A stretch of DNA of 64,000 nucleotides from Blastopirellula retiformator (GTDB lineage Bacteria; Planctomycetota; Planctomycetia; Pirellulales; Pirellulaceae): the NCBI RefSeq assembly GCF_007859755.1, contig NZ_SJPF01000001.1, positions 652,234-716,233 of the forward strand. The letters are read 5' to 3'. The notes beneath the pieces were generated by a model. The model was not told the origin of the DNA and made no database searches. It worked only from the letters and a program-made list of their open reading frames with translations. Within the stretch, counting starts at the first letter, position 1, and each line of letters opens with the position of its first letter. This document shows, piece by piece, positions 1-38,725 of the stretch. The position numbers were made by a program, and so were the translations under genes.

Positions 1-545
1 GAACGGCAGCTTGCACGGTCCAGCAGCGGGGCGAAAATGCGTGAAGAGTTCGCGGCGGGATCAAATCTGTTTATGCCGACTGGGCGTGCCGAACAGTATT
101 GCCACGAGGGCATTTTTCAACAGGCAGTTAGCCTGTTCTTCAAGACTTGCTGCTACATTGGATGAGTTTGTTGTCATAACATATGCCTTTCAAAAAGCAA
201 GTTGCTGAAAATTGCCGGCGCCTCGAACCCACCTAATTACTGGGTACGTGCAGCCCTGCGGCATGTCGCTCAACGCCTACCGCAGGTATATTCATGGAAT
301 TTAACGAAACGCACACAGTTACATTCTGAGTGTTTGACACGTGATGAAAGTGCATTTCCAGATACAGTGTTTTCAAAGTCTTGAGAGCCGGTGAAGTGAC
401 TTGGCGACTGGGAATCGATCACTATCCCACGTGGTCAATCAGGTTCGTACAACAAGGCGGTCTGGGACAAGGGCACTACAAATGACGCCTTTCCAGCTTG
501 GTCTCTCAAATTTTATACTCGCTCACCATCAACCCATCTCCCGAC
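1..545. other. Left-edge intergenic region
   Basis: No convincing gene lies here. Short open frames exist, but none has a good ribosome-binding site or a recognisable protein pattern, and the first runs through a repeat fragment (100-131). The stretch from 200 to 545 shows no feature I can name; it presumably contains the promoter of the downstream methyltransferase. Confidence 0.6.
100..131 (+). repeat. Solo right end of the 149-bp MITE family
   Basis: Positions 100-127 are identical to the right terminus of the full copy at 38577-38725, including the hairpin with GGCATTTTT and the end TCAACAGGCAG. It is followed by TTAG (128-131), the usual flanking tetranucleotide. The sequence left of position 100 is unrelated to the element, so the rest has been lost. 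Confidence 0.8.
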
Positions 546-8824: not shown

Positions 8825-9679
8825 CTACGGGATCTCTTTCGGCAACGGCCGCAGTTCCATCTTTCGCACAAACAGTTCCGCCCCTTCGGTTTGCAGCAAC
8901 AACTTGCCGTGGTTGGGGAAGACCTTGTCAGCGCGATTCACGACGACGCCGTTAACGCGATAGACGAGCGAGTCTCCCTGGCAGAAGCATTCGACGGTGG
9001 TCCACTCTTGGCCGGGGCTTTCGACATCTTCTTTGCCGCGGAAGTCGACGACGTCTTTCCAGTCGGGATCGCGGCCGTACCAGTTGATGCGGCCCGCCTT
9101 GAACAGGGTTGGCTTTCCGGTCGGCGACCAAACCGCTTCGCCGTCCCGATCGCGGACGATACTGCACGTCGCTTCGGCCCGCATCACGGCGCCATCGGCG
9201 TCTTTGCCCGCCAGCACCAGGATGTCGCCGACGCCCCCTTCGATGATTTGGCACTCGAGCGACGTCATCCAGGGGCCCGGCTTTTCAGGCGTACCGCCAA
9301 AGCCGCCATCGGGACCTTGGCAGTGGAGCAGCACGCCGCTGTCGCGCGACTTCCCTTTGCGGCTCAGCAGCGTTTCGGTTCCCCAACGATACTCGAGTAC
9401 CAAGTAATAGTTAGCGTACTCGTTACGGGTGATCAATCCCCCAAAGCCGTCGCCCGAGATGTGCAGGACGCCGTCTTTGCCCATGGTAAAGACGTTCCGT
9501 GGATCTTCGTGACCCCCGTCGGTCAGCCAGCTGTAAAAGTGCTGCTTCAAGTCGCCATCACCGAGCAGCGAAATTGTCTCGGTCGGTACGATCGGCTTGG
9601 CGTCAGGCTCAGCGGCCGATAGGGAACTAGCGGAAACAGCGAGAAGCAGCGCGAAGGCGCAGCGGCGGAGGGCGAACAT
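8825..9679 (-). CDS. Secreted DUF1080 (3-keto-disaccharide hydrolase-like) protein
   Basis: A 284-residue exported protein with a signal peptide (MFALRRCAFALLLAVSASSLSA). It is followed by a concanavalin-like DUF1080 domain with ISGDGFGGLITRNEYANYYLVLEYRWG and DSGVLLHCQG motifs. DUF1080 proteins are numerous in planctomycetes, and some family members have been linked to 3-keto-glycoside hydrolysis or carbohydrate binding. The role here is inferred only from the family. It starts at an ATG and appears monocistronic. Confidence 0.87.
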   Translation of the reverse strand: MFALRRCAFALLLAVSASSLSAAEPDAKPIVPTETISLLGDGDLKQHFYSWLTDGGHEDPRNVFTMGKDGVLHISGDGFGGLITRNEYANYYLVLEYRWGTETLLSRKGKSRDSGVLLHCQGPDGGFGGTPEKPGPWMTSLECQIIEGGVGDILVLAGKDADGAVMRAEATCSIVRDRDGEAVWSPTGKPTLFKAGRINWYGRDPDWKDVVDFRGKEDVESPGQEWTTVECFCQGDSLVYRVNGVVVNRADKVFPNHGKLLLQTEGAELFVRKMELRPLPKEIP

Positions 9680-9773
9680 AACCGGGCGAGACCTGTTTTA
9701 GAAGGGAAACGGCAGGGCGAACTCTCTTAATTGCGCAGAGATTTGTTGCATTTACGCGACGCGATAGGCTTAG

Positions 9774-9922
9774 CAGTCCGTTGATTTTCTCGACGGACTG
9801 CGTGATCGCATGGATGCGATCCCAAAATAGCGACGTAAGTCGATATTTTGCGAGCCGCGAAGAGCTACGCTCTGAGCCTGGCGAGGTTGGAAAATGCCAC
9901 GATGGCATTTTTCAACAGGCAG
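9774..9922 (+). mobile_element. 149-bp multi-hairpin MITE, copy B
   Basis: A full-length copy bounded by CAGTCCGTTGA on the left and TCAACAGGCAG on the right (imperfect inverted ends). The direct tetranucleotide TTAG flanks both sides (9770-9773 and 9923-9926). It contains successive hairpins: CAGTCCG/CGGACTG, GATCGCA/TGCGATC, CAAAATA..CGAC/GTCG..TATTTTG and AAAATGCCA/TGGCATTTTT. There is no open reading frame, so any movement must depend on a transposase encoded elsewhere. The right TTAG supplies the stop codon of the adjacent antitoxin gene. Confidence 0.85.
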
Positions 9923-10372
9923 TTAGCCAGGCATACCGCTACGCAAGCGATAGGCCATTTCCCAAAGTCGATCGATTTCTCCCCGTTCAATCACTTCGAT
10001 CGGTTTTAGGCCGTCGAAGGCGGGGTTCGGATCGCTAAACCAAGATCCAAGCGCTGATGGGTCAACAACCTCGCTGAGCGTTTGATGGAGGCGATAGACT
10101 TCGTTGTAGGGGCGACGTAGCTTTTCGACCTGTTGCCCTTCCGACTCGACCTTGGCGAGCGTACGCACCGATACGTTCACGACTCGGCCGAACATGTCTC
10201 GGGACATTTTCAAACGGTCTCGAAGTTCCAATTTTGTTTCGCCGGCGAATCGTACCAGGCCAACGCCTTTGAGACCGTTGACGGAAACGACTTCGGGCTC
10301 AACTCTTTGTTTGGATCGCTTCGGCGGTGCGTGCTTCGGCGAAGGCTTCTTTTTGCTAATACGAGTTGTCAT
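9923..10372 (-). CDS. Xre/MbcA/ParS-type antitoxin (DUF2384) of a RES/Xre pair
   Basis: A 149-residue protein with a basic N-terminus, a central helix-turn-helix-like segment (LRDRLKMSRDMFGRVVNVSVRTLAKVESEG) and a C-terminal DUF2384 toxin-binding region (LGSWFSDPNPAFDGLKPIEVIERGEIDRLWEMAYRL). It is expected to neutralise the RES toxin encoded 87 bp upstream and to bind their control region. The ATG at 10372 is preceded by its own promoter (TATAAT at 10406-10411). The stop codon falls within the TTAG flank of the MITE at 9774-9922. Confidence 0.88.
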   Translation of the reverse strand: MTTRISKKKPSPKHAPPKRSKQRVEPEVVSVNGLKGVGLVRFAGETKLELRDRLKMSRDMFGRVVNVSVRTLAKVESEGQQVEKLRRPYNEVYRLHQTLSEVVDPSALGSWFSDPNPAFDGLKPIEVIERGEIDRLWEMAYRLRSGMPG

Positions 10373-15928: not shown

Positions 15929-16477
15929 TGCTTCGCCCCCGTTTGCTCACTCTGCTACTAATCTTCACCTCAATTCCCTTCGCCGCCGCCGCCGAGCCCG
16001 TTCCCGTCATCTTTGACACAGACATATCTGGCGACGTTGACGACGTATTAGCCTTGGCCATGTTGCACGCGCTGGCGGCGAATCTGGCGGAATCGCCCCG
16101 ACGATAACTATTTTGGCCTATCTGCCTGTTGAAAAATGCCATCGTGGCATTTTTCAACCTCGCCAGGCTCAGAGCATAGCTCTTTGCGGCTCGCAAAATA
16201 ACGACTTACGTCGTTATTTTGCGATCGCATCCGTGCGATCACGCAGTCCGTCGAGAAAATCAACGGACTGCTATCAGAGCCGGGCCTGGTGACGGTCGAG
16301 AAGGATGGCTTTACGCGGTTTGCACCCGCCGCCAAGGGACGAGATCGCTATCTGACGATGGACAAAAGTCAGGCGATTCGGGTGATCGAGGCGCAGCGCT
16401 GTTTGGCGAGTCAGCCCCAGTTGCGAAGTAGCCAATTCGACGCGGGCTACGGGGTGATGTTGAGCGCCGCCCGATAG
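15929..16477 (+). pseudogene. Nucleoside hydrolase remnant, internally deleted and split by a MITE
   Basis: The N-terminus is intact (ATG 15929, signal peptide, then IFDTDISGDVDDVLALAMLHAL with the metal-binding aspartate cluster of inosine/uridine-preferring nucleoside hydrolases). The frame then breaks near 16080-16095. Removing the element at 16122-16270 and one CTAT copy restores a continuous C-terminal frame reading DDNYFGLSEPGLVTVEKDGFTRF...YLTM...AIRVIEAQRC. Family members are about 330-350 residues, so roughly two thirds of the gene has been deleted between the two parts. The tail runs into the convergent TolC gene. It is surely non-functional. Confidence 0.85.
16122..16270 (-). mobile_element. 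149-bp multi-hairpin MITE, copy C
   Basis: A full-length copy in reverse orientation, flanked by CTAT on both sides (16118-16121 and 16271-16274). The central hairpin is a perfect 12-bp stem, CAAAATAACGAC/GTCGTTATTTTG. The insertion is inside a nucleoside hydrolase remnant. The protein frame is restored exactly when the element plus one tetranucleotide is removed, direct evidence that the 4 bp are a target duplication. Confidence 0.9.
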
Positions 16478-34094: not shown

Positions 34095-34137
34095 TTGCCT
34101 GTTGAAAAATGCCACGAGGGCATTTTTCAACAGGCAG
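34095..34137. mobile_element. 43-bp palindromic MITE derivative, copy D
   Basis: It consists only of the right-end hairpin sequence in both orientations (T/CTGCCTGTTGAAAAATGCC, a 4-nt centre, then the complement). It is flanked by CTAG on both sides (34091-34094 and 34138-34141). The internal 106 bp of the family are missing. The matching tetranucleotides suggest it transposed in this form or shrank after insertion. Confidence 0.8.
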
Positions 34138-34429: not shown

Positions 34430-35083
34430 ATTTTTTGCGGCGTATTCGGCGCGCTAGAGCGGTTTTCCTTCATCTGTATCGTTCTGGCTGGTTGCGGCCG
34501 CGCTGGTCGGCGTTGACCTGCATCGACGAATCTTGAGGATTCGCCTGCTTCGGTCGCCTGGACCAGCTTGCCTCACTAACGCCAGAAACGCTACAGCTAT
34601 CAGAAAAACGCTCAAGGGCCACCGCTAACCTCGCAGCACTTTAAATTGCTGCGCAATGAACATGACGTGCGCGCTCTCGCCCCACGTGTCGCTCTGCTGT
34701 CGGATCAGGCGAAACCTCGGATGTTTGGGGGTGCGGCGATCGGCGGCGGAATCGGAGCAATTGTCGCCGTCAGCTCGGCCTTGATCGTCGGAGGAGAAAT
34801 GGCTGCCAGTACCGCTCCGCTCGGCTTGGCCCTTACCGGCGCCATTGTCGGGACGCTGCTCGGCGGTTTTACCGGTTGGGGAATTCCCCGTGACCAAGAG
34901 GCGGACGTGATGCGAATGTTAGCTGGCCGCCGTGGCAGTTCATTGCTTTGCCGAGTCGTCTGACCCGACCGATCGAATTGCCGAAGGGGTGAATATGGCC
35001 GAAGAAAGCCGACTCCATCATGCCAGCTGAGCTGGTTCGCTTCTTGCCAGCGGCGAATCGAAGCCAAGCGAAAGGGGACGAAT
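34430..35083. other. Region with a weak membrane-protein ORF
   Basis: The only coding signal is a plus-strand frame from about 34646 to 34963. It reads FGGAAIGGGIGAIVAVSSALIVGGE..APLGLALTGAIVGTLLGGFTGWGIPRDQEADVMRML, like the glycine-rich hydrophobic hairpin of general-stress/DUF-type membrane proteins. It has only a TTG start and no ribosome-binding site, so it may be the decayed 3' part of such a gene. The rest shows nothing. Confidence 0.4.
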
Positions 35084-36529: not shown

Positions 36530-36623
36530 AGATGTCTTAGAGATGTGCGGGTCTTCCGCGTCCCTCCTCAAAGGTAAGTCCCGGCTATCGAAGTTTATAA
36601 TGCAACGTATTGATCAGTCTAGC

Positions 36624-36720
36624 TGCCTGTTGAAAAATGCACTCGTGGCATTTTCCAACCTCGCCAGGCTCAGAGCGCATCCCTGCGATCACGCAGTCCG
36701 TCGAGAAAATCAACGGACTG
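36624..36720 (-). mobile_element. 97-bp deleted MITE, copy E
   Basis: Both family termini are present and CTAG flanks each side (36620-36623 and 36721-36724). The central CAAAATA hairpin and the AGAGCTA segment, 52 bp in all, are missing. It lies between the sigma-54 regulator and the GH32-like gene. Confidence 0.85.
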
Positions 36721-38576: not shown

Positions 38577-38725
38577 CAGTCCGTTGATTTTCTCATCGGG
38601 CTGCTGGATCGCAGGGATGCGATCCCAAAATAGCGACGTAAGTCGTTATTTTGCGAGCCGCGAAGAGCTATGCTCTGAGCCTGGCGAGGTTGGAAAATGC
38701 CACGAGGGCATTTTTCAACAGGCAG
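38577..38725 (+). mobile_element. 149-bp multi-hairpin MITE, copy F
   Basis: A full-length copy flanked by TTAG (38573-38576 and 38726-38729). Compared with copy B, the first hairpin reads CAGTCCG/CGGGCTG and the third has a G opposite T. Both keep pairing as G-U wobbles in RNA, hinting that structure matters. Confidence 0.88.

Follow-up and report, generated by a model that had tools for sequence, protein, structure and literature searches.

The 149-bp element dispersed through the analysed stretch of Blastopirellula retiformator DNA (64,000 nucleotides, hereafter the window) is almost certainly a MITE. We consider it likely, taking all parts of the explanation together, that it has been moved in trans by an IS1182-like transposase that inserts at YTAR sites, and that its interior of five hairpins has been conserved. 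It has inserted with 4-bp duplications that are mostly YTAR, empty sites for it were found, it is present in high copy number, and its ends and target match those of IS1182-like elements in relatives. The mechanism is an ordinary one, a MITE moved in trans, and the well-conserved structured interior is the unusual part.

Copies in the window

Six whole or partial copies were found in the window (Table 1). Those at 9774, 16122 and 38577 were read directly as exactly 149 bp, with the ends given in an earlier sequence-only reading, and the plus-strand tetranucleotides which that reading listed beside its five two-ended copies (TTAG, CTAT, CTAG, CTAG, TTAG) all agreed with ours. Its statement that the five copies have common termini does not hold for the one at 34095-34137, which consists of two inverted right ends. 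The copy that it placed at 36624 begins at 36623 and is a 98-bp, internally deleted form, and its "solo end" at 100 proved to be the right end of a copy into which an IS4-family element had inserted. The left end of this split copy was located at C1:650425, 1.8 kb upstream of the window and across an assembly gap; its TTAG flank and IS4 insertion point agree with those of window 102-127. The split copy spans 1936 bp, the same span as another gap-containing copy.

Near-perfect 43-bp palindromes made of two MITE right ends were found by pattern at two places genome-wide, window 34095-34137 (flanks CTAG/CTAG) and C4:293886-293928 (flanks TTAG/CTAG). Forms of about 96-115 bp with internal deletions also recur, at C3:589378-589473, 596663-596777 and 660759-660873 and at window 36623-36720.

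Table 1. Positions of the element, its hairpins and the associated IS4-family sequence (window coordinates unless a locus is named)
Feature	Position	Strand	Basis
IS4-family insertion, end with its own terminal repeat, outside the MITE	1-101
Right part of the copy split by IS4, followed by TTAG	102-127	+
Second copy of the IS4 9-bp duplication	102-110		by analogy
Left target duplication, TTAG	9770-9773		read directly
Full 149-bp element, five consecutive hairpins	9774-9922	+	direct reading, DNA and RNA folds
Hairpin 1; left terminal repeat CAGTCCGTTGA forms the outer arm	9774-9800	+	folds, pair counts
Hairpin 2; GGA in or beside the loop	9804-9821	+
Hairpin 3	9823-9850	+
Hairpin 4; interrupted stem GCGAGCCG...GGCGAGG	9851-9885	+
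Hairpin 5; overlaps the right terminal repeat TCAACAGGCAG (9912-9922); IS4-family target in other copies	9886-9916	+
Right target duplication, TTAG	9923-9926		read directly
Full 149-bp element, flanks CTAT/CTAT	16122-16270	-	direct reading; empty counterpart in congener G002
43-bp palindrome, two inverted right ends, flanks CTAG/CTAG	34095-34137
98-bp copy with internal deletion, flanks CTAG/CTAG	36623-36720	-
Full 149-bp element, flanks TTAG/TTAG	38577-38725	+
IS4-family element loci	window 1-101; own-genome L071, L072, L073, L074, L081, L182, L183, L109

Copy number, target duplications and empty sites

The whole genome (6.2 Mb in 10 contigs, 97% complete) was searched with a two-ended pattern, which gave 167 exact-ended copies versus 0 for a reversed-pattern control. 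The sequence YTARCAGNCYGTTGAW matched 239 times in the genome versus 2 in the control, some of these matches not being MITE left ends. Among the 59 distinct loci read first, which had been chosen for good ends, the length was 149 bp in 57 and the 4-bp flanks were identical in 50. Because of that selection, an unselected 800 kb of contig C3 was examined together with the window. This set comprised 50 full copies (47 from C3 and three from the window; 16 partial segments were left out), 40 of which had identical 4-bp flanks. When left and right flanks were shuffled against each other, the mean was 9.9 and the maximum 18 in 2000 shuffles. YTAR accounted for 33 of the 40 identical flanks, and the left flank was YTAR in 34 of all 50 full copies. 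The 800 kb of C3 held 36 exact-ended and 47 full copies; scaled from the 167 exact-ended copies, we estimate about 220 full copies genome-wide. By our estimate the MITE makes up about 0.5% of the genome. The relatives' copies showed identical 4-bp flanks in 36 of 91 cases (shuffled mean 12.0, maximum 25), the 91 being what remained of 127 matches once those from the own genome, on the wrong strand or in fragments, and a number of weak or duplicate ones, had been dropped.

Direct evidence of insertion comes from two empty sites. At C3:571477 a copy lies within a repeat of about 100 bp, of which four uninterrupted examples, when aligned, have one TTAG in place of the two beside the element. For the copy at 16122, the joined flanks align to a syntenic region of congener G002 over 75 bp, without gaps and at 80% identity, the tetranucleotide itself differing by a substitution. 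Relative to a segment close by, the G002 match is inverted, which shows that rearrangement has occurred there. At the interval of 9774, which shows good synteny in congeners G001, G002 and G003, the covariance model detected no element; absence alone can be stated at this site because divergence of the spacer prevents an alignment over the joint. The single covariance-model match in the three 20-kb congener regions was weak (19 bits) and lay elsewhere in G003. The element is therefore absent from both window sites that could be compared (9774 and 16122), and always-occupied orthologous sites, which the sequence-only reading had named as evidence against transposition, were not what we found. 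The flanks are likewise consistent genome-wide, and together with the empty sites they bear out its proposal of transposition with 4-bp YTAR duplications.

Each property of a MITE was observed. The element is short and has no transposase gene, for which 149 bp is too small, in agreement with the earlier statement that it has no ORF. It has many copies with identical ends (167 versus 0 in the control) and a target-site duplication of fixed length (40 of 50 versus 9.9 shuffled, and the empty sites). Its terminal repeats are common to an autonomous element, IS1182-like, present in relatives and as relics only in its own genome. Its two ends are imperfect repeats, with only 8 of 11 bases in agreement.

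The repeat that the MITE interrupts at C3:571477 (GAGCGTTTTTCTGATAGCTGTAGCG..., about 100 bp) is itself dispersed and distinct from the MITE; it occurs at window 34520-34613 and at many places on C3.

Conservation of the five-hairpin interior

The predicted fold of the plus strand of 9774-9922 is more stable than those of shuffled sequences, with z = -8.35 as DNA and z = -6.51 as RNA. Homologues were present in all three congeners and in other families. A covariance model, applied at E <= 1e-6 with at most seven candidates scored per genome, detected the element in 35 of the 396 genomes sampled from the order. These genomes represent nine families, in one of which (f8) the matches were weaker and shorter, at about 119 bp. 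When 23 copies were aligned with MAFFT, 96.1% of cells were paired; both sides had changed in 64 cells, compared with 18.6 for shuffled and 1-8 for slid controls. The number of doubly changed pairs was weakly above the shuffles (11 versus 7.7, a value reached by 11 of 500), and further pair types were equal to them (35 versus 34.6). Covariation thus exceeds the controls, two of the five measures being weak or equal to shuffles. Across 26 copies from eight families, double changes occurred at 20 of 44 pairs. Compensatory changes have preserved the interior across families as a module of five hairpins; it is not leftover transposase sequence, and this conservation suggests that the fold itself matters.

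A GGA lies within residues 27-50 in all 26 sequences of alignment A4. The motif might be read as CsrA-like, a candidate reading that rests on one hairpin. Rfam gave no match at gathering score in the window and none up to E = 5 in 9674-10022, and a consensus scan of one copy detected neither a terminator nor a sigma-70-like promoter.

Within the window's own family, four genomes belonging to a single genus each carry one relative of the element between tRNA-Val and tRNA-Asp (loci L290, L292, L293 and L297 in G106, G214, G122 and G134; the tRNA-Val is called Cys in one of the four). It has neither hairpin 1 nor mobile ends and is on the strand opposite to the tRNAs. Inspection by eye indicated that hairpins 2, 3 and 5 still pair although their sequences differ; hairpin 4 is kept in three genomes and has lost its inner part in G134. 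Four other listed genomes of this genus gave no match at E <= 1e-6. Selection on structure after insertion is a possible, unproven, interpretation of these tRNA-cluster copies.

Strand counts and the possible meaning of the fold

It is quite conceivable, if somewhat doubtful, that the hairpins are functionless, maintained by template-switch correction of imperfect palindromes in replication in a purely selfish MITE. Such correction alone would make G-T and A-C mismatches equally common. The rare stem changes within the window's own genome are indeed near symmetric between strands (G-T 21, A-C 15, p = 0.41), and in alignment A1, where decayed copies are more numerous, the positions are almost balanced (20 G-U versus 17 A-C; 42 versus 17 cells), without the bias of A4. 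The location of 45 of the 47 C3 copies outside genes, according to our own rough gene calls, is also as expected for harmless sites. However, the genome-level consensus of 14 genomes contained 13 G-U versus one A-C, beside 13 other mismatches, and nine versus one when distinct types were counted (p = 0.02). Each of these genomes has at least three copies; those with fewer were left out, the window's own genome (one row) among them, and the rows of some genomes hold a wrong-strand or repeated match, which the majority rule should outvote. A4 showed the same direction, with 58 G-U versus 6 A-C cells and 23 versus 6 positions. Moreover, palindrome correction does not account for the unpaired GGA near loop 2, which is kept in every sequence of A4.

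The excess of G-U over A-C in the genome-level consensus hints at a folded top strand, the strand counts being few, non-independent and in conflict between data sets. The orientation of the copies sits awkwardly with a read-through RNA of the top strand: in 20 of 27 tandem gene contexts, again by our rough gene calls, the element is opposite to transcription. We read these counts to mean that amplifying lineages depend on the top strand, whereas copies decay neutrally once inserted. In this part of the proposed mechanism, which we hold less firmly, the folded top strand, as RNA or as single-stranded DNA, would be under selection in lineages that are still amplifying, and individual inserted copies would then decay nearly neutrally. 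A function of the fold is a candidate one and unproven. A bolder version, which we regard as rather unlikely, would make the element a mobile structured RNA with a conserved GGA, carried between IS1182-type ends, spread across an order of planctomycetes and fixed in the tRNA cluster of one genus, where compensatory change of its inner hairpins continued after the mobile ends had been lost. If this were true, either a MITE became domesticated as this RNA, or the MITE captured its cargo from it.

An IS1182-like transposase as candidate mobiliser

The window's own genome contains a truncated 405-aa transposase (L077) next to an element end in which CTAG is followed by CAGCCCGTTGA. Relatives of L077 in other genomes include complete ones, and 14 of 15 loci outside the own genome have CAGCCCGTTGA-like sequence at both ends. 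Identical flanks (CTAG, TTAG or CTAA) were found in 11 of these 14 two-ended copies, and YTAR adjoins every IS1182-like end, though the pattern did not require it. Nine of the 14 came from one genome, G059, and several copies have broken genes. Among the named genome records, 45 loci encode relatives: 11 had both ends (six with identical flanks), six had one end, and 28 had none, these last being mostly contig-edge fragments or loci whose identity is near or below 50%. The best of eight IS ends agreed with the right end of the MITE at 18 of 20 bases (G059) and with its left end at 16 of 20 (L189). The MITE (10 genomes) and the IS1182-like transposase (eight) co-occurred in five of 60 genomes (hypergeometric p = 0.002, relatedness ignored). 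G059, with its nine IS1182-like loci, gave no MITE match in this 60-genome search.

Against NCBIfam models, three complete proteins scored best with IS1182, at about 195 bits, below the curated cut-off of 270, and second-best with IS5_4, at 92-118 bits, below the cut-off of 140. We therefore use the label "IS1182-like". The sequence-only reading had pointed to IS5-type transposases; this was close, considering the rank of IS5_4, and is probably wrong, as IS1182 scores best. It had also proposed looking for a full IS with matching ends, and IS1182-like elements of this kind were found in relatives, with only relics in the own genome. There, an intact matching transposase was not found, only the L077 remnant with one matching end and a fragment, L118, so the source of transposase has been lost, was missed or lies elsewhere. 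Amplification is probably past, or its source lost or missed. None of the 61 IS1182-like loci held the hairpin module, inside or nearby (E <= 0.01), which means that the MITE did not arise from a known relative by simple internal deletion. Action of a transposase in trans follows as an inference, and an IS1182-like mobiliser is likely. In the mechanism that we propose, an IS1182-like IS would supply in trans a DDE transposase that recognises the imperfect terminal repeats CAGTCCGTTGA and CTGCCTGTTGA, moves the MITE into YTAR sites and leaves the 4-bp duplication; that this particular transposase did the moving is the inferred part.

A complete IS1182-family gene lies beside a MITE copy at L075 (about C4:7757-9061), and its unrelated inverted repeats rule it out as the partner.

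YTAR is a target of IS5- and IS701-type families. Movement of the element by another DDE family that prefers YTAR, of IS5 or IS701 type, would fit this target and the second-best score of the candidate transposase with IS5_4, but we judge it improbable. At 23 DDE_Tnp_1 loci, leaving aside whole MITEs and the IS4 copies within MITEs, single matching ends with NTAR were seen only near L061, L064 and L077. The first two are members of a transposase group in which the remaining copies have no such ends, so that the IS1182-like remnant L077 is the sole convincing case. A search of the genome for DDE_5 (PF13546), the IS701 domain, gave no match.

The IS4-family element is an independent insertion

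A 426-aa protein of the IS4 family (NF033592, 217 bits, cut-off 115) is encoded inside MITE copies. Two such units (L071 and L073) are 1709 bp long and have MITE ends, YTAR flanks and the 426-aa ORF. With this length, these ends and the 4-bp flanks, the IS4-family element looked convincing as the parent of the MITE. The MITE would then be an internal deletion of the 1709-bp unit, which a direct repeat at the deletion point would account for, and would be moved by the IS4-family transposase encoded between identical ends. We regard this as very improbable, and it is largely refuted by the element's own terminal repeat, CAATACYGTTCGGCACG, its 9-bp duplication, its presence in both orientations in the MITE and its occurrence wholly outside the MITE, seen once in the own genome (L072). 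Own copies free of assembly gaps measure 1551 bp; gaps occur in L080, L081, L182 and L183, half of the eight own copies. The 9-bp duplication was identical in six of eight own two-ended copies and in seven of 12 relatives' copies, and non-identical at L071 (8 of 9 bases), L080, L173, L179, L170, L180 and L171. The 12 relatives' copies all lie outside the MITE, often in G-rich, REP-like sequence. The IS4-family element is an independent IS that uses the right hairpin of the MITE as a landing site.

Kin of the IS4-family element in G003, G014 and G030 also have G-rich or REP-like surroundings.

Comparison with known systems

REPs are not known to make a target duplication. A REP/REPIN-like nature of the MITE, with movement by a single-strand HUH (RAYT) transposase that would need hairpin ends, is very improbable: terminal hairpins are present and the left-flank NTAG resembles the GTAG tag of REP families as given in the available part of PMC3733652, but the flank is variable instead of a fixed GTAG-type tag (GTAG in one of 59 loci) and is duplicated on the other side, as in DDE insertion, and the empty sites carry a single tetranucleotide.

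Bacterial MITEs are usually viewed as shrunken insertion sequences. The interior of the present one is a fold conserved over several families and not recognisable transposase debris, which makes it testable whether a geneless passenger can be selected for its structure. Three mobile layers coexist in one genome: a decayed IS1182-like mobiliser, a MITE with more than 100 copies, and an IS4-family element that lands in the MITE hairpin. The compensatory conservation of the hairpins across families, the IS4-family insertion in the right hairpin and the palindromic derivative at 34095 go beyond what the sequence-only reading described. The element was not recognised in open-licence papers on MITEs, IS1182, YTAR and repeats of Planctomycetes or Pirellula, which is weak evidence of novelty.

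The GTAG- and CGTC-tagged REPs, which occur in Planctomycetes among others, are alike in being palindromic and of high copy number; as outlined in the portion of PMC3733652 that was available, they are 20-40 bp long, whereas the MITE is 149 bp long with terminal repeats and 4-bp duplications. The IS4 family is represented inside several MITE copies but inserted there independently, and it differs from the MITE in its ends and its 9-bp duplication.

The transposase group of the candidate mobiliser scores best with the IS1182 family, whose elements, unlike the MITE, carry a transposase. The family member ISPse1 has a terminal repeat and, in a table row of the accessible section of PMC3281130, the value 4, apparently the duplication length, and is to that extent similar. 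IS1272, of the same family, replaces stem-loops without a duplication according to the accessible section of PMC5678879; in contrast, the MITE duplicates a tetranucleotide, and no stem-loop was replaced at the two empty sites.

The closest published parallel is bcr1, from the Bacillus cereus group, an element of about 150 bp with 11 to 130 copies per strain and a conserved stem-loop (PMC6542083 and PMC2267715, in the sections available). On the evidence of those sections, bcr1 resembles the MITE in its length, its copy number by tens, its mobile-element features and its stem-loop structure, and differs in its TTTAT motif and its restriction to one species group, whereas the MITE has IS1182-like ends, YTAR duplications and covariance-model matches in nine families of an order. 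The MITE is a structured variant of a kind already known.
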